Source: Candidatus Latescibacterota bacterium
GTDB lineage: Bacteria; JAAXHH01; JABIQT01
Direction: 5' to 3'
NCBI GenBank assembly: GCA_018667995.1
Contig: JABIQT010000300.1
Location: 1 to 8,356, forward strand
Length of the DNA: 8,356 nt
The position numbers and the translations under genes are program-made. The notes under the pieces were generated by a model. It saw only the letters and a program-made list of their open reading frames with translations, was not told the origin of the DNA and ran no database searches. Position 1 is the stretch's first letter. Each line of letters opens with the position of its first letter. Below, piece after piece: positions 264 through 8,356 of this stretch.

Positions 264-1151
264 ATGGAAGAATGGACTTTTGTGCACGTGACTGATATCC
301 ATGTCGGTTCGCCCGATTCTTTTCGTTTCGCTCCAGCATGGAACGAAAATTGGAAGACCGCACGCAGTCAAATCATTGCTGCAGATCCTGACTTCCTGCT
401 TGTGGGCGGGGACGTGGCACGCGATGGCCTGCTTCATCGCTCCGAGCTTGAGCAGATAAAGGCTGATCTCGACAGTTTACCATTCCCGTACCACGTAATC
501 CCGGGGAATATGGATATTGGCAACAAGTATACGGATATTGCCGGCCCTCGGCGGGATGATCCCTCACTAAATGTAACTGAGAAAGGTCTGGCCCAGTTCG
601 AATCGATATTCGGTCCTTTGTGGTGGTCATTCGACCACAAGAATATTCGGTTCTCGGGACTTTCCGACATTGCTATTAACTCAGGACTCCCGCAGGAAGC
701 CCGCCTCTGGCGTTGGGTGGAGGATCAGAATGTCCGTCCGCATGCGGCTCGTCATGTCTGGCTATCCCACCATGCGCCTTTTATAGACAGCCCTGACGAG
801 CCCAATTTCAACATCGCTGAGCCAGGTCAGTATCACGACTGGTACTTTGGAATCGATGAGCCCGGACGGGGGCGCCTGCTGGAGTCTTTCAAACTAACCA
901 GAGCAAATATCGTTTTGAGTGGTCATATTCACTGTCGCCACAAACAGAAATTTGACGCAATTGAATACTATAAAGGCCCTTCCACAGCGTTCTCCCAATG
1001 GGGAGATAGATGGCCTGAGGGAGATGATACGTTGGGCTTCCAGAGATTTGATGTCTCAGGATCGCAGATACGCCAATCATTTGTTCCTCTGACGCAATTC
1101 TCCAGTTCGACGGGTTATGGGCCAGGTGGTCATCCTCGGCCATCGACTTGA
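264..1151 (+). CDS. Calcineurin-like metallophosphoesterase
   Basis: A 295-residue protein of the calcineurin-like phosphoesterase fold, which hydrolyses phosphomono- or diesters at a two-metal centre. Family motifs appear in order: TDIHVG (D11, H13), GGD (D50), PGNMD (N82), SHH (H169) and SGHIH (H221, H223), which together supply the expected metal ligands. The usual GNHD motif reads GNMD, so the histidine that normally assists catalysis is Met83. There is no signal peptide or membrane segment, so it is probably cytoplasmic. The start is fixed by AAGGAA at 253-258, five bases before the ATG. The substrate cannot be read from the sequence; relatives include cyclic-nucleotide and other phosphodiesterases. 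The 3' end overlaps the convergent DUF1415 gene by 22 bases, and its last residues (glycine/proline-rich) look like a weakly constrained tail. Confidence 0.9.
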   Translation: MEEWTFVHVTDIHVGSPDSFRFAPAWNENWKTARSQIIAADPDFLLVGGDVARDGLLHRSELEQIKADLDSLPFPYHVIPGNMDIGNKYTDIAGPRRDDPSLNVTEKGLAQFESIFGPLWWSFDHKNIRFSGLSDIAINSGLPQEARLWRWVEDQNVRPHAARHVWLSHHAPFIDSPDEPNFNIAEPGQYHDWYFGIDEPGRGRLLESFKLTRANIVLSGHIHCRHKQKFDAIEYYKGPSTAFSQWGDRWPEGDDTLGFQRFDVSGSQIRQSFVPLTQFSSSTGYGPGGHPRPST

Positions 1152-1684
1152 TCTTGTGAACGTTCAGGTAGCCCGCGTTCACGCAGTGTTCGAATGTTAC
1201 GCTCGGGGATCTTTTCTACGTCCGGATAGGTCGCCACGGCATGGTCTACACTCGCCTCCCGAAGAAGATGCAACATGGGATACGGGGAGCGGTTCGTGAA
1301 ATTCTCGATGGCATCAGGATGCGATCCCGCGAATTGGTAGTCTGGGTGGAAGCTCGCAACCTGTATGATCCCCGACATGTCTGCATCCAGAATGGCCTGA
1401 TCCACAACATCCAGAAAGTCATTGTACTGGTGGAAGTCGTTGAGAACAAAGGGATGAATCAGGAGCGTCGTCTCGATTTCTTTAATCTCTGTTTCGGCCA
1501 GTTTCTTTAACTCGAACGCGAGATCTTCCAGCAGACTCGGAGGGCCGTCTGCTACGCTGACCGAGAAGCGAATAAGATTGGACGCAAGTACGCTACGTGC
1601 GAAGGGACATATATTCCAATCGACCACGAAGTCACTGATCCAACTAATCGTTTGATTGATCACTTCCTGCTTCACAGTCGACAT
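1130..1684 (-). CDS. DUF1415 family protein
   Basis: A 184-residue protein recognisable as DUF1415, a family of unknown function. Supporting features are the N-terminal WNICPFAR motif (about residues 23-30), the central SFHPDYQFAG stretch (111-120) and the NRSPYPMLHLLRE block (131-143). The conserved Cys and His residues in these blocks suggest a catalytic or metal-binding role, but that is inference. I prefer the ATG at 1684 over an in-frame ATG 27 bases upstream because GAGG lies a few bases before it and the protein then begins MSTVKQEV without a spurious leader. It sits 94 bases downstream of the methionine aminopeptidase on the same strand and may be cotranscribed with it, although a TATATT box at 1723-1728 could give it its own start. 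It is soluble and cytoplasmic by composition. Confidence 0.85.
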   Translation of the reverse strand: MSTVKQEVINQTISWISDFVVDWNICPFARSVLASNLIRFSVSVADGPPSLLEDLAFELKKLAETEIKEIETTLLIHPFVLNDFHQYNDFLDVVDQAILDADMSGIIQVASFHPDYQFAGSHPDAIENFTNRSPYPMLHLLREASVDHAVATYPDVEKIPERNIRTLRERGLPERSQDQVDGRG

Positions 1685-1778
1685 AATCACCTCACGAAGA
1701 TGACGGCACATCAGAGAACCGAAATATAGACATGGCCATAGGATCTTTTCTGTGGTATGGTCGCCAGATCCAATGGCA

Positions 1779-2519
1779 TCAAGCTGTCAGAATTATGGGC
1801 GAGTCCTGTGTAATCACGATAGTATGTTCAAAATGTGCGGATGGACTTCCATCGATGGATTTTACCGTCCAGCCGTCGTCAGCTTCGTACCATCCTGTGG
1901 CCCCGGAAGTTACAATAGGTTCTACGGTGATGACCAGTCCTTCAGTAAGTGGCGCACGATCACGTTCGTCATAGAAATTGAGTACCATGGGATCCTCATG
2001 AATCGATCGTCCCACACCATGTCCCCCGAGATCTGGGATCACCGCGAAACCGAATTCACGCACTCTTTCTTCTACCGCTCGACCAATCACATGGATGGGC
2101 TCGCCCGTCCTGGCAACAGCAAGCGCGTCCGATAATGCGGTTTCCGCACAGTCACGCAGGTCCTGATACAATTCACAGGCTGGTTCGACAGTAATCGTCA
2201 TGGCAGCGTCGGCGATAAAATCGTCCAATTCGGCTGTAACATCGATGGTGACCAAGTCTCCTGGTTGCACTACACGTCTTCCAGGTACACCGTGCACGAT
2301 CTCATCATTTATGCTGATTAAGTTGGTCCCTGGAAACCCGTACTCAAGCTGCGGCGCCGACTTTGCCCCATGGCTGCGCAAGACCATCTCACCAATGGTA
2401 TCGAGTTCACCTGTGGTGATCCCGGGAATTAGGGATTGGCGCATCCCGTCCAGTGCCTCACGGACAACGCTACCCACGCGTTTCAGACAAACCAAATCGT
2501 GCTCGGTGTCTACAGACAT
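1779..2519 (-). CDS. map: Methionine aminopeptidase, type I
   Basis: This enzyme removes the initiator methionine from new proteins in the cytoplasm using a two-metal centre. Numbered from the GTG at 2525, all five pita-bread-fold ligands are present: D95 in TIDVT, D106 in FIADAA, H169 in GGHGVG, E202 in VEPIV and E233 in FEHTI. The catalytic histidines are also present (H78 in NDEIVHGVP and H176 in SIHEDP). I place the start at the ATG at 2519 (246 residues), because GGAG then lies five bases upstream. The in-frame GTG two codons earlier would overlap the SD. The length is slightly below the roughly 264 of E. coli Map, and there is no N-terminal zinc finger. The gene is not next to adk/secY/infA as housekeeping map often is, so it may be a second copy, though this cannot be settled here. 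It has its own candidate promoter and probably leads DUF1415. Confidence 0.93.
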   Translation of the reverse strand: MSVDTEHDLVCLKRVGSVVREALDGMRQSLIPGITTGELDTIGEMVLRSHGAKSAPQLEYGFPGTNLISINDEIVHGVPGRRVVQPGDLVTIDVTAELDDFIADAAMTITVEPACELYQDLRDCAETALSDALAVARTGEPIHVIGRAVEERVREFGFAVIPDLGGHGVGRSIHEDPMVLNFYDERDRAPLTEGLVITVEPIVTSGATGWYEADDGWTVKSIDGSPSAHFEHTIVITQDSPIILTA

Positions 2520-2578
2520 GCCCACTCCAAAGCATCAAGATCGTACAGTGGCAGCTCGTTTCTTGGGACTGAGTCAGT

Positions 2579-2815: not shown

Positions 2816-3943
2816 ATGACGGCGATATACCGAGCAGGTATTGTGGGTGCCGGCCAAATTGGTCGGGCGCACGCTTTGGGATACCAGGGCGTCGATTCTG
2901 TCGAAATCGTTGCAGTCACCGAACCGAATGACCGAGTGAGGAGTGAGTTTCAGGAGCAATATCAAATCCCTACCGGATACACAGACATTAAGGAAATGAT
3001 GGACCAGGAAGATCTTGATTTTGTCAGTATCTGCACCTGGCATCTGTTGCATGAACCCCAGACGTTACTGGCAGCATCTTATTTACCCAAGGCGATAATC
3101 TGCGAGAAGCCTATGACTGTAGGCACGGCCTCCGCGGACAGAATGATCGCCGAATGTGAAGAAAAGCATGTAAAACTGGTCATCGGACATCAGCGGCGAT
3201 TCTACCACTCCTGGACCAGAGCGCGAGATCTCATTCTCGAGGGTGTGATAGGAGTACCTCAGATGGTAACGACGAAGTCCGGGGAAGGACTTCTGAACTG
3301 CGGGACTCATGTTATTGATGCCTGCAGGTATCTCGTTGGCGATCCTGAAACTGATTGGGTCATGGGGGCACTGGAGCGTAAAACAGATCGCTATGAGCGA
3401 GAAGTCCGTATAGAAGATTGTTGCATGGCACTGATTCAGTTCGAAGGCGGCAGCCAAGCCTTGGTTCAGTCGGACCTGACTCCAGAAAGATGGTCCGTAG
3501 AAGAATACCAGGTACGGGGAACTGAGGGCGTGCTTGAGACCGATGCCAGGTCCGTCCGGTATCTGAACGGACAGACAGCTAGCTGGATTGAGCTCGACCT
3601 TCCAACGGAGGACCCGTGGGTACTCCAGGCTCAGGCCACGGTGGCATGGTTCGAGGGAGGAGACGGTCACAGGGGCGAGGCACGCCAGGCACGTAAGGCG
3701 GTCGATATCATGATGGCGTTGTATCAATCCGCTCGGGATCATGAAGTCGTGAGAATGCCCATGGAAGAAACTGGATATCCGATGGACGAAATGTTCGCGG
3801 AAGGCAAACTGCCCGTACTGGAAGCGGGTGCCTATGACATCCGGTCCTTCCTGGCCATGGAACCCGACGACCGAGCACGTTATAATGAGATGCGCGGCCA
3901 GGGGATGCGCCATAAAGACATCGCCGATGCGATGAACAGATAA
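2816..3943 (+). CDS. Gfo/Idh/MocA-family NAD(P)-dependent oxidoreductase
   Basis: A 375-residue dehydrogenase of the family that oxidises sugars, inositols and related polyols or reduces the keto forms. The N-terminal Rossmann fold shows GAGQIG (G11, G13, G16) and an acidic residue after strand two (E36 in VTEPND), which favours NAD. The family EKP signature is at 97-99. The C-terminal substrate domain carries NCGTHVIDACRYLVGD (161-176), whose H165 and D168 are the likely catalytic pair. GAGGAG lies five bases before the ATG. There is no signal peptide, so it is probably cytoplasmic. After the usual fold it ends in an unusual basic tail (residues 350-375) that reads like a short helix-turn-helix. 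The substrate is not identifiable. It has no same-strand neighbour within the window and appears monocistronic. Confidence 0.92.
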   Translation: MTAIYRAGIVGAGQIGRAHALGYQGVDSVEIVAVTEPNDRVRSEFQEQYQIPTGYTDIKEMMDQEDLDFVSICTWHLLHEPQTLLAASYLPKAIICEKPMTVGTASADRMIAECEEKHVKLVIGHQRRFYHSWTRARDLILEGVIGVPQMVTTKSGEGLLNCGTHVIDACRYLVGDPETDWVMGALERKTDRYEREVRIEDCCMALIQFEGGSQALVQSDLTPERWSVEEYQVRGTEGVLETDARSVRYLNGQTASWIELDLPTEDPWVLQAQATVAWFEGGDGHRGEARQARKAVDIMMALYQSARDHEVVRMPMEETGYPMDEMFAEGKLPVLEAGAYDIRSFLAMEPDDRARYNEMRGQGMRHKDIADAMNR

Positions 3944-4035: not shown

Positions 4036-4611
4036 CTACCAGTAAATATATCGAAGGTATTTCTCCCGGTCTGCTTTAGGCAGTTCGCGGATATCTTGAA
4101 TTACGTACCGATTGTCAGAGACGTCCAACAGGACTTTACTGTGGTCACCATAGTCCTGTGCGCGATCCACCTGCCACCGCATCTGGAATTCCAATCGTCC
4201 CTGGGTCGTCTCCACATCGAAGAACAGAAGATGAAACTTCCATGTGACACCATATATCCTGGTGATGGAATATTCGAAGTACTGCGCCATCAGAGATTCG
4301 TGAATCAATTCCTGTGCGGCGGCAGGAAACTCGCTTATGTCCATAATCAGACCGACTTCCTGATCAATTCCAATTTCGTCGGGGTACTTCAGGACGATAT
4401 ACTCATTGGGGGAAGAAACGGGAAAAGCTCTAACGGCATGTACGGCCCGGTAGAGCCCTAAACCGTCCTCATCGTCCGCCACCTGAACGTGGAGCAGACT
4501 GTGCAGCCCCTTGAACATTTTGCACGTCTCGGGACGGAGGACACGGACGCCAGAGAAAGGGCCGGCGTCGAGTGACTGAGTGGAAATCGGTTCCGCGATC
4601 GAAGCGGTCAT
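4036..4611 (-). CDS. DUF1854 family protein, partner of the ABC exporter
   Basis: A 191-residue soluble protein that I recognise as DUF1854. Characteristic stretches are the early HVQVADDEDGLGLYRAVHAVRAFP region (about 41-64, with the family's acidic and hydrophobic alternation), the PNEYIVLKYPDEIGI segment (68-82) and a C-terminal YVIQDIRELPKADREKYLRYIYW-type ending with many aromatic residues. Its biochemical role is unknown. In beta-proteobacteria the family is annotated as cyanophycin-metabolism-associated because it sits with an ABC transporter next to cyanophycin synthetase. The start is supported by AAAGGA seven bases before the ATG. It lies 36 bases downstream of the ABC gene on the same strand, so the two very probably form one operon. 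No cyanophycin gene is visible in the window. Confidence 0.85.
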   Translation of the reverse strand: MTASIAEPISTQSLDAGPFSGVRVLRPETCKMFKGLHSLLHVQVADDEDGLGLYRAVHAVRAFPVSSPNEYIVLKYPDEIGIDQEVGLIMDISEFPAAAQELIHESLMAQYFEYSITRIYGVTWKFHLLFFDVETTQGRLEFQMRWQVDRAQDYGDHSKVLLDVSDNRYVIQDIRELPKADREKYLRYIYW

Positions 4612-4647
4612 TATTGAATCCTTTGACTCTATCTGAGTTCTATCGGC

Positions 4648-6873
4648 TCAGAGTTCGAGTGAGGTCAACTGGGTTTGAATCCTAACCAGACGGTGATAAA
4701 TCCCTTCATAGTCCATCAGCTCGTGATGACTACCCTCCTCTGCAAGTCGTCCGTTGTCGATCACCAGAATGCGATCGGAATCACGTAATGTACTGAGTCG
4801 ATGTGCGATGGCTATCGTCGTTCGGTTTTTGCACAGTATGGCAAGTGCATCCTGTATCTGTTGTTCTGATTCGGTATCCACACTCGAGGTGGCTTCGTCG
4901 AGGATCAGTATCGCCGGGTCACACAACAAGGCGCGCGCAATGCTGACTCGTTGGCGTTCGCCTCCCGAAAGTCCGGCTCCTTGTTCCCCGAGAATTGTGT
5001 CATAACCTGCAGGTTGACGCATAATGAAATCATGCGCATTGGCCGCCTTGGCCGCATTGATGATATCCTCCAACTTGGCGTCGGGTCGGCCGTAGGCTAT
5101 GTTGTCAGTAATGCTGGCTCGAAAAAGAAAAGGTTCCTGTAATACCAGTCCAATATGCCGACGTATATCCTGTCGCCGAATATCCCGCACATCATGCCCG
5201 TCGATCTTTACGCCACCTTCCTGCACATCATAAAACCGGCACAAGAGGTTGATTAACGTCGACTTTCCACTGCCACTCCGTCCAACAATTCCGATCATCT
5301 CCCCAGGATTGATCTTGAATGAGACCTCGTGGATCACCGGGTTGTAAGGGTCGTAGCCGAAAGACACTTCGCTGAACTCTATCTCACCCTCTATGCGGTT
5401 CATGGGTTTCGCGTCGGGGTTATCGTGGATACCGGGATCCACGTCAAGTATCTCAAACACTCTCTGGCTGGCCGTCATAAATGACGTCAACCAGTTGGAG
5501 AACTGTGTGAGGCTGGAAAGTGGCCCGTAGAACATGCCGAGGTAGCCAAGGAAGGCCATGAGCGTTCCCAAGGTGATCCGATCGGACAGGACGTTCTGTC
5601 CCCCCACAAACCAGATAATCAGACCTCCAAGCCCAAAGACGTAGGCCATGATCGGAGAGAAGGTACCGACGCTCATGTCCACGTGTCGACGCGAGTCTCT
5701 CAGATCATTGTTGGTTTTTGTGAACCGTTCAGCTTCACGGGCTTCCTGGGCGAACGCCTTTACCAACCGGATTCCGGACAGTGTGCTGTTTATAGTCGAC
5801 GACAGCTTCGATTGTGTATCGGACAGCTTGTAGTATCTGGGATATATTCGCTTATAGAAATAGACAGTACCCCCTACTACAAAGGGCACGGGAATAAGCA
5901 CATACATCGCGAGCTGGGCATCGAGGTAGAAGAGCATCACACCGATGGATCCGATCATCAAGATGTTTATGAGGAAGCCTTGCGCAAGCTGGTTTACGAA
6001 TCCCTGCAGCGCCTCTACATCAGCGATACACCGATTCATCAACCGCCCCACCTCCATGCGGTCGTAATAGTCTATCGACATTTGTTCGAGTTTGGCGAAC
6101 AATTGCTGCCTGACATCCGTCGTGATCCTCGTTCCGATTAGACTGGATAGCCGCGCCACAAAAATGTTGACGACGCTTCTCAGCATGGCCGCACCTGCGA
6201 GACTCAAGACCAACCACGGCAGCCAATCGGTATGGTCCCGGCTCGTCAGGACATCGTCGACGAGGATGCGAGTCAGGTAAGGAGGGAGTAGATCGAAGGC
6301 TATTCCGACCAGCATAAGTGCGAATAGGGCCACCGCCCACGAGCCGTAACCACTCAACAGGCGAAATGTACGCCAGAATATGGCGCCCTGATTTACGCAA
6401 CGCGGGCACGGAGAGCCCACCGCAGGCAGAATGAGACCACAGGAGTCACAAAAGCGTGGATCCTGCTTCTGCAGAAGGTCGGGCTGGAATCCGGTGCCCT
6501 CACGCAGGCGCTTCATTTGTGTGAGCACACGCTGAAAGCGTTCTCTATGCCGATTGGTGAATCGTACGAGATCTACTGGCAAGCCTTCGAGGACAACCTG
6601 CAACGAGGCGCTTCCTACGGAATTCCGTATCCGGAAGTCCTCTATGGATTCCATAGAATACGGCCCGGACACCGGCTGTTCGGCAGACAAGGGGATACTT
6701 GATACGGAGGATTCGGTAACAATCAACCAGATCGGCTCTATGCGCCCGAGGTCATCCAGATCACCTTCTACGGCAATAAGGACATCATCGACTCGAATGT
6801 GAGCCTGTGATAGCCTGGTATATATTTCAGATGGAATGGTCGCAGTGGCTGCGAGTATAGTTGGGGCCGACAT
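4648..6873 (-). CDS. ABC exporter half-transporter with N-terminal PH-like region and zinc ribbon
   Basis: A 741-residue inner-membrane ABC protein with fused permease and ATPase. Residues 25-120 resemble a bacterial PH-like domain (WLIVTESS strand near 49-56, then FTNRHRERFQRVL near 105-117). Four cysteines, C142-x2-C145 and C156-x2-C159, form a zinc ribbon. Residues about 175-450 carry the exporter transmembrane domain, with around six hydrophobic segments. The nucleotide-binding domain has Walker A GRSGSGKST (531-539), Q-loop Q579, signature LSGGERQR (635-642), Walker B ILILDE (655-660, catalytic E660), D-loop SSVDT and switch H691, so it should be ATP-active, probably as a homodimer. At roughly 580 residues for a standard half-exporter, the extra length is all N-terminal. 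The SD is weak (AGG, about eight bases before the ATG). The substrate is unknown. The downstream DUF1854 partner links it to a transporter family known from cyanophycin loci. Confidence 0.92.
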   Translation of the reverse strand: MSAPTILAATATIPSEIYTRLSQAHIRVDDVLIAVEGDLDDLGRIEPIWLIVTESSVSSIPLSAEQPVSGPYSMESIEDFRIRNSVGSASLQVVLEGLPVDLVRFTNRHRERFQRVLTQMKRLREGTGFQPDLLQKQDPRFCDSCGLILPAVGSPCPRCVNQGAIFWRTFRLLSGYGSWAVALFALMLVGIAFDLLPPYLTRILVDDVLTSRDHTDWLPWLVLSLAGAAMLRSVVNIFVARLSSLIGTRITTDVRQQLFAKLEQMSIDYYDRMEVGRLMNRCIADVEALQGFVNQLAQGFLINILMIGSIGVMLFYLDAQLAMYVLIPVPFVVGGTVYFYKRIYPRYYKLSDTQSKLSSTINSTLSGIRLVKAFAQEAREAERFTKTNNDLRDSRRHVDMSVGTFSPIMAYVFGLGGLIIWFVGGQNVLSDRITLGTLMAFLGYLGMFYGPLSSLTQFSNWLTSFMTASQRVFEILDVDPGIHDNPDAKPMNRIEGEIEFSEVSFGYDPYNPVIHEVSFKINPGEMIGIVGRSGSGKSTLINLLCRFYDVQEGGVKIDGHDVRDIRRQDIRRHIGLVLQEPFLFRASITDNIAYGRPDAKLEDIINAAKAANAHDFIMRQPAGYDTILGEQGAGLSGGERQRVSIARALLCDPAILILDEATSSVDTESEQQIQDALAILCKNRTTIAIAHRLSTLRDSDRILVIDNGRLAEEGSHHELMDYEGIYHRLVRIQTQLTSLEL

Positions 6874-7086: not shown

Positions 7087-7264
7087 GTAAAAAATCTCAT
7101 GTTCTTAGTTTTTCTGCGATCGGGACCCGTTCGTATTCAAAAACCCGACGCCGGTTGCTCCTCGTTCATGTTGGATTTAGCTTGCCTTCCACGTGCACGC
7201 GGCCTATCGTACGTCCAATCTAAAATGAGTCCATGATCAAGGTCTTTTACCTGGAGGAATGCCC

Positions 7265-7897
7265 ATGTCGAAATACAATACTCTGGTTTTTGCGGGCGGT
7301 CAGATTCATGACTACAAAAGCACGGGGCCAGCCATAATGAATGCCCTTTCCGAGTGTAAGGATCTGACGCTCACATATGTAGAGGAAGACCTCGATGTGC
7401 TGATTTCGCCGAATCTGGATCAGTATGATCTGATTGTGTTTTACTACACCGTGGGAGAGATCAGCGACGCCCAGAAGAATGGATTGTTGAATTGGGTTGC
7501 CAGCGGAAAGGGATATGCAGGAGTTCACAGTGCCGCGGATTCATTTCGAACCTGTCCCGAATACCGAGCCATGGTAGGGGGGCACTTTGTTACCCACCCC
7601 CACTACCGGGATTATCAAGTCAGTGTGATCGACCAGGAGCACGCCATCACTGAAGGACTTACCGAATTCACGGTGACGGACGAACAGTATATCCTCGACT
7701 ACGACCCACGGAATCAGGTCCTGTGCTCCGCTCTTTATAACGGTCGCGCCGTGCCTGTCGCGTGGACGAAATCGTGGGGTGAAGGCCGCGTTTTCTATCT
7801 CGCGCTGGGCCACGATGGTAAAGCTTGTGAGCATGAGAATTTTCGGTCCATACTCCAACGAGGAGCAACCTGGGCTGCACAGCCATTGGAGGCCTGA
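7265..7897 (+). CDS. ThuA-like domain protein
   Basis: A 210-residue protein of the ThuA family, which has a class I glutamine-amidotransferase-like fold. Family features are the N-terminal strand and HDY motif (LVFAGGQIHDY, residues 7-17), GYAGVHSAADSF (83-94), GGHFVTHPHYRDY (105-117), the DEQYILDYDP segment (139-148) and the C-terminal PVAWTKSWGEGRVFYLALGHD (164-184). Members occur in sugar-catabolism loci such as trehalose utilisation, but their reaction is not established. The protein is short and has no signal peptide, unlike many secreted ThuA proteins, so it is probably cytoplasmic. I choose the ATG at 7265 because GGAGG (7253-7257) lies seven bases upstream; the in-frame ATG at 7259 would be only one base from it. 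It is the first visible gene of an operon with a zinc-ribbon protein and a diol dehydratase subunit. Confidence 0.9.
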   Translation: MSKYNTLVFAGGQIHDYKSTGPAIMNALSECKDLTLTYVEEDLDVLISPNLDQYDLIVFYYTVGEISDAQKNGLLNWVASGKGYAGVHSAADSFRTCPEYRAMVGGHFVTHPHYRDYQVSVIDQEHAITEGLTEFTVTDEQYILDYDPRNQVLCSALYNGRAVPVAWTKSWGEGRVFYLALGHDGKACEHENFRSILQRGATWAAQPLEA

Positions 7898-8052
7898 TGC
7901 GAGCCTGCCCCAAATGCTCACACAACCCCGTACACCAGTCTACCTTTGGTCCATTTGACTATCTAAGGGCCCCGTTTCGATGGGGTACCTGTCCCTACCG
8001 GTGTGACAGCTGTGGTCACAAATTCTGGAAACCATGGACCTGGGTAGGTTAG
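7897..8052 (+). CDS. 51-residue zinc-ribbon protein
   Basis: A small protein starting MRACPKC and ending FWKPWTWVG. C4-x2-C7 and C36-x2-C39 form a zinc-ribbon pair, with an additional C32 in TCPYRCDSCG. The short aromatic and basic tail (HKFWKPW) follows the second knuckle directly. The ATG shares its A with the TGA stop of the ThuA gene (TGATG), and GGAGG at 7888-7892 lies four bases upstream, inside the last ThuA codons. Both indicate translational coupling, and the spacing of cysteines argues against a chance frame. The role is unknown: such ribbons may bind nucleic acid, mediate protein contacts, or deliver or sense metal. The diol dehydratase gene begins 26 bases after its stop, so it is part of the same operon. 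Confidence 0.75.
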   Translation: MRACPKCSHNPVHQSTFGPFDYLRAPFRWGTCPYRCDSCGHKFWKPWTWVG

Positions 8053-8078
8053 TATATCCCCGCCAAGCAGGAGTTAGA

Positions 8079-8356
8079 ATGGTCCATCCCAATGGCCAAA
8101 ATCCCAAACGTTCCAGACGATTTAAAATACTCGCGGATCGCGACGTAAATCAGGATACCTACGTCCACGAATGGCCCGAGGCAGGCCTCATTATCACCGG
8201 GAGCCCTAACGATCCTAAGCCTTCGATCCGTGTGGAAAATGGTATGATAGAAGAGCTCGACGGCCGCGAGTGTCGTGAATTTGACATGATCGATCGGTTT
8301 GTCGCTACGCATTGTATCGATCCATCCATAGCCGCGGAGTCCATGGCAATGGACTC
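8079..8356 (+). CDS. pduC: Diol/glycerol dehydratase large subunit, N-terminal part, truncated by window edge
   Basis: The first 92 residues of the large (alpha) subunit of adenosylcobalamin-dependent propanediol/glycerol dehydratase, which converts 1,2-propanediol or glycerol to propionaldehyde or 3-hydroxypropionaldehyde. The match to PduC/DhaB1 N-termini is strong: RRFKILADRDVNQD, then SPNDPKPSI, then ELDGR, then FDMIDRFVA, then MAMDS, in family order and spacing. The catalytic TIM-barrel residues and B12 contacts lie beyond the window. AGGAG (8069-8073) lies five bases before the ATG. The gene is preceded by ThuA and a zinc-ribbon protein rather than by microcompartment shell genes such as pduA/pduB. 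I cannot tell propanediol from glycerol preference from this piece. The medium and small subunits and the reactivase are expected downstream. Confidence 0.92.
   Translation, partial: MVHPNGQNPKRSRRFKILADRDVNQDTYVHEWPEAGLIITGSPNDPKPSIRVENGMIEELDGRECREFDMIDRFVATHCIDPSIAAESMAMD

Follow-up and report, generated by a model that had tools for sequence, protein, structure and literature searches.

Fused dhaB1-dhaB2 dehydratases without a reactivation factor have been described in Mesorhizobium, Mycobacterium, and Hyphomicrobium, and it was remarked for these enzymes that reactivation may not exist or may take another route (PMC4777399). An engineered fusion was reported to be slower to inactivate in lysate (PMC7674605). 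The present locus bears on the means by which such fused B12 enzymes escape or undo suicide inactivation when no reactivase is encoded (PMC4777399; PMC7674605). With regard to microcompartments, the poribacterial shell loci that have been sequenced are satellite-like and have no core locus (PMC4207490), and for Latescibacteria SAGs with such shells a propanediol dehydratase was noted as missing (PMC4454575). The new part of the present locus is the link between a dehydratase and a tiny ribbon-like protein; the fused, reactivase-free dehydratase itself is already known.

The window, which is the whole stretch of DNA that was analysed, comprises an entire contig (G000:C308) of 8356 bases from a MAG of 6.06 Mb in 1165 contigs, 85% complete. 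The genes for the ThuA, ribbon, and dehydratase proteins all lie on the plus strand at its right end, and the following features were recognised:

264-1151, plus strand: metallophosphoesterase, also near the dehydratase in relative G013 (65%)
1130-1711, minus strand: DUF1415 protein, with a counterpart close to the dehydratase in G013 (51%)
1779-2525, minus strand: type I methionyl aminopeptidase, housekeeping (TIGR00500, 246.7 bits)
2816-3943, plus strand: Gfo/Idh/MocA oxidoreductase, whose 78% ortholog heads the dehydratase operon in G013
4036-4611, minus strand: DUF1854 protein, paired with the ABC exporter, in synteny with relative G001 (58%)
4648-6873, minus strand: ABC exporter, divergent from the adjoining ThuA gene, in synteny with G001 (70%)
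7265-7897, plus strand: ThuA-family protein of 210 residues (PF06283), with a 72% ortholog at the same place in G001
7897-8052, plus strand: four-cysteine (CPKC...CDSC) ribbon-like protein of 51 residues, directly 5' of the dehydratase in all four genomes
8079-8356, plus strand: large subunit of a B12-dependent diol/glycerol dehydratase, N-terminal 92 residues, the gene being cut by the contig end

The ThuA gene (ATG at 7265, TGA stop at 7895-7897) is preceded by GGAGG at 7253-7257, and the ribbon gene (ATG at 7897, TAG stop at 8050-8052) by GGAGG at 7888-7892, so that the stop of the former and the start of the latter share one base (TGATG). The dehydratase start (ATG at 8079) lies 26 bases past the ribbon gene behind AGGAG at 8069-8073, and its frame stays open to the last base. 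The earlier note, which described three co-directional genes with a one-base overlap, a 26-base gap, and a Shine-Dalgarno sequence each, is correct. The arrangement is not confined to one genome: G001, which belongs to another family, keeps the order Gfo/Idh, DUF1854, ABC exporter, ThuA, ribbon, dehydratase, and the dehydratase frame, as read in relatives, runs on unbroken past the point at which the window ends. Neither a cobalamin riboswitch nor another known RNA was found near the locus, and the promoter scan there gave nothing above shuffles. Poribacteria were considered as the host phylum: the POR1130 target site was missing from 15 genomes of the order with up to one mismatch allowed, a result that is not decisive given that 16S is often lacking in MAGs and that the probe covers the phylum only in part.

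The dehydratase fragment of the window matches positions 1-83 of PF02286 with 108.3 bits. Its own assembly (G000) yielded no more of the large subunit than this 83-position fragment, and the intact enzyme was read in genomes from three further genera of the order, namely G001 (locus L011), G011 (L010), and G013 (L012, a contig of 18,803 bases). Each of the three encodes large and medium subunits as a single protein of 746-752 residues with no inner stop, 72-77% identical to the G001 copy, and the two that were scanned (G001 and G013) score 863-890 bits for PF02286 and 91-102 bits for PF02288. The PF02287 small subunit follows as the next gene in each. Of the large, medium, and small subunit domains that stand together in the relatives, the window thus holds only the start of the first. 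Since only 92 residues of the enzyme lie within the window, the relatives are the basis on which its gene is taken to be the start of a fused large-plus-medium dehydratase. Among the subunits that had been expected further to the right, the small one is indeed there in the relatives, and a separate medium one is not, being fused to the large subunit. The seven substrate- and metal-site residues (Q H E E Q D S), which fall past the window end, are identical in every row of the alignment, the three intact relatives included; we take them to be Gln141, His143, Glu170, Glu221, Gln296, Asp335, and Ser362 of diol dehydratase, with roles as in 1DIO. The fused dehydratase scores 729-756 bits against the solved diol and glycerol dehydratase alpha chains, and its nearest solved structures are the Klebsiella-type glycerol and diol dehydratases; further near entries of recent date (9vi2 and others) have the alpha and beta parts in a single chain.

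To canonical unfused enzymes the fused dehydratase shows 53-58% identity. The only fused relative among the plasmid records listed, on a plasmid of the alphaproteobacterium Shinella zoogloeoides (NZ_CP132313.1, L080), shows 43% identity, and no ribbon gene is annotated next to it; its operon holds a sugar-type ABC transporter, a kinase, a phosphatase, and a dehydrogenase, and no reactivase is annotated there. In the tree, which has long branches, a single origin of the fusions was neither shown nor rejected (p-AU 0.36), and the same holds for descent from the rhizobial/mycobacterial fusion.

A reactivase had also been expected to the right of the dehydratase, and none lies there in the relatives. 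At E 0.001 the DDR reactivase family PF08841 was detected in none of the 14 genomes of the order, which are incomplete MAGs; a weak match of 15.8 bits in G001, one of the four dehydratase genomes, stays below the cut-off. The positive controls, five genomes whose dehydratase is unfused (two of them Halanaerobium), gave 507-547 bits, and a reactivase encoded at a distance was rejected as a candidate, being undetected though these controls worked. The ATP:cobalamin adenosyltransferase family PF01923 is present in G000, G011, and G013, which makes a supply of the coenzyme plausible; none was seen in G001, a genome that is 83% complete.

The ribbon gene lies directly 5' of the dehydratase gene in four of four genomes (G000, G001, G011, and G013), and in a profile search of 384 genomes full-length matches to its product were confined to these four. 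The protein carries two CxxC pairs and is 51-57% identical to its three relatives in a codon-for-codon alignment, with 22 of 51 residues and all four knuckle cysteines invariant. Differences are fewest at second codon positions (e.g. 21/15/32 by codon position), and on this pattern of substitution the ribbon is a protein that evolves under constraint. Its matches to ribbon families stay below the cut-offs (16.8 of 34.4 bits in Pfam, 18.7 of 31.3 in NCBIfam), and the predicted structure, a low-confidence model with a pLDDT of 62, places two strands around the second knuckle. Solved structures yielded only zinc-finger look-alikes, matched through the CPYxCxxC stretch, and these were rejected as relatives. 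Short ribbons with a YxCxxCxxRFW-like motif that are related to the 51-residue protein were also seen at L074-L079 (G063, G013, G000, G011, and G001). In those that were readable a membrane helix then follows, and ribbons of this kind are among the weaker partial matches of the profile search, some of them in the same genomes. A limited search of the open literature gave no description of a ribbon protein together with a diol dehydratase.

The surroundings of this pair were mapped by tblastn of the nine window proteins on the three relatives. The ThuA protein, which matches PF06283 with 156.7 bits against a cut-off of 33.4 (positions 3-209 of 209), is encoded at the dehydratase locus in two of the four genomes, the window and G001, where one opposite-strand TPR gene stands between it and the ribbon gene. 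At the loci of G011 and G013 it is absent, and the best ThuA elsewhere in these genomes is about 38% identical. The Gfo/Idh oxidoreductase is linked in three of four (the window, G001 with 71%, and G013 with 78%), and in G013 its gene runs into the ribbon start (ATGA), an overlap like that of the ThuA gene in the window. The ABC exporter and DUF1854 genes are linked in the window and G001, those for the metallophosphoesterase and the DUF1415 protein in the window and G013, and the methionyl aminopeptidase had no tblastn match in L010-L012. The G011 locus retains the ribbon, fused dehydratase, and small subunit genes, with neither ThuA nor Gfo/Idh. Therefore, the stable unit on this conservation map is the ribbon plus the fused dehydratase plus the small subunit, and varying genes have been coupled in front of the ribbon and dehydratase. 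As for the other neighbours, the ABC exporter and DUF1854 proteins (4036-6873, minus strand) resemble the cyanophycin-associated families NF052233/NF052234 below their cut-offs (616 of 880 and 49.5 of 150 bits), and the exporter has a CxxC...CxxC stretch of its own in its N-terminal part.

The linkage of ThuA in two and of Gfo/Idh in three of the four genomes marks ThuA as a neighbour and not an obligate part. Of the proposal that a polyol dehydratase is accompanied by a ribbon accessory and a ThuA protein of the same pathway, the former half is supported by the linkage in all four genomes and the latter is not supported, ThuA being absent from the G011 and G013 loci. A single pathway for polyols derived from sugar or inositol, with ThuA and Gfo/Idh producing or processing the substrate of the dehydratase, could be argued from the retained synteny of both genes, from the translational overlaps with the ribbon gene in the window and G013, and from the Shinella operon with its sugar-type transporter, kinase, and dehydrogenase; it is nevertheless quite improbable in our judgement, as G011 keeps the whole stable unit with neither gene at the locus. 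Nothing pertinent to ThuA with 3-keto sugars was found in the open literature. The ribbon, for its part, might have nothing to do with the dehydratase, as a passenger or as a regulator acting on other genes, and stand beside it only by descent within one order. Its linkage is known from four genomes of a single order, relatives that combine a ribbon with a membrane helix occur elsewhere in the same genomes, and the ribbon stands at changing distances from the dehydratase (26, 95, 169, and 205 bases). However, no other neighbour persists across the four genera, the surrounding genes having been replaced, and the ribbon is missing from genus g3 together with the dehydratase, so that we consider a passenger role very improbable. 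The gene position in these four genomes instead points to a dedicated accessory of the dehydratase.

The third alternative concerns the cellular location of the enzyme. Shell genes had been anticipated to the right of the dehydratase; none were found near it in L010-L012, and they lie instead on other contigs of the same genomes. The genera with PF00936 genes are precisely the four that have the dehydratase, and the ten g3 genomes searched gave no hit to this family. Where the contigs were readable, the shell loci hold a class II aldolase (PF00596), a CoA-acylating aldehyde dehydrogenase, PduL, acetate kinase, and EutN/CcmL, contents that resemble PVM-type compartments (PMC4207490). These loci, L048-L055, are on G000:C649 and C700, G001:C232 and C80, G011:C185 and C6, and G013:C2, and a second shell locus holds a GlcD/GlcE-like FAD protein, a group 22 nickel-pincer isomerase, and an RpoD-like sigma factor. 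The dehydratase might be cargo of such an unlinked PVM-like microcompartment, in which the lactaldehyde from a fucose/rhamnose aldolase would be reduced to 1,2-propanediol and then turned by the dehydratase, within the shell, into propionaldehyde for use by the aldehyde dehydrogenase and PduL encapsulated there. The shared occurrence in four genera, the enzymes of the shell loci, the propanediol dehydratase noted as missing in shell-bearing Latescibacteria SAGs (PMC4454575), and the satellite-like poribacterial loci without a core locus (PMC4207490) speak for this role, and the shared occurrence is a point against the cytosolic reading. All negatives come from one genus, though, and the co-occurrence may therefore reflect one joint loss in g3. 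Moreover, the two systems share no locus. Amphipathic helices of the encapsulation type were seen by eye at the N-terminus of the aldehyde dehydrogenase, the C-terminus of the aldolase, and the N-terminus of PduL, and the dehydratases of Listeria, Halanaerobium, G210, and G322 carry such helices on their medium and small subunits, but none was found between the fused dehydratase domains or on the small subunit of the three relatives. Because the dehydratase has no such helix, a cytosolic enzyme is favoured, and a role as cargo appears unlikely, if worth keeping in mind.

The explanation that we hold to be probable is thus a cytosolic, AdoCbl-dependent fused polyol dehydratase with a separate small subunit, which would work without a canonical reactivase and with the ribbon as its dedicated accessory. 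Such an enzyme would remove water from a small polyol (1,2-propanediol or glycerol) by a cobalamin-dependent radical 1,2-elimination, and the resulting aldehyde could be oxidised by enzymes from the distant microcompartment loci, namely CoA-acylating aldehyde dehydrogenase, PduL, and acetate kinase. The ribbon would be made just before the dehydratase, probably together with it, and may help in its folding, in metal or cofactor loading, or in its upkeep. ThuA and Gfo/Idh would be neighbours from sugar or polyol oxidation; some lineages probably transcribe them together with the module, which would not depend on them. A bolder proposition, to which we lend little credence, is that the 51-residue ribbon acts as a maintenance factor of a new type, thanks to which a fused B12 diol dehydratase can dispense with the ATP-driven DdrAB/PduGH reactivase; it might then aid metal or cofactor loading or stabilise the holoenzyme.

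A tiny protein tied to such an enzyme in four genera is a directly testable candidate for how fused dehydratases cope in the absence of a reactivase. The locus also shows that a candidate-phylum lineage with shells can possess a diol dehydratase, an enzyme reported missing in shell-bearing Latescibacteria (PMC4454575), and fused, inactivation-resistant dehydratases are of interest for the production of 1,3-propanediol and 3-hydroxypropionate.

Among known systems, the ThuA proteins of trehalose-type sugar catabolism share PF06283 with the window protein across its whole length, a likeness seen from sequence alone, whereas no thu transporter stands beside the latter. The same genomes carry the aldolase, aldehyde dehydrogenase, PduL, and acetate kinase shell system of PVM and PVM-like microcompartments (PMC4207490), whose signature enzyme is the aldolase and not a diol dehydratase; here the dehydratase is unlinked and without targeting helices. 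With PduCDE of PDU microcompartments the enzyme has the Pfam subunits and the active-site residues in common, but its subunits are fused and it comes without encapsulation helices and without linked shell or reactivase genes. The Mesorhizobium, Mycobacterium, and Hyphomicrobium enzymes (PMC4777399; PMC7674605) share with it the fusion of large and medium subunits, the separate small subunit, and the lack of a detected reactivase gene, and in comparison with this fused class it is the ribbon partner that is new here.
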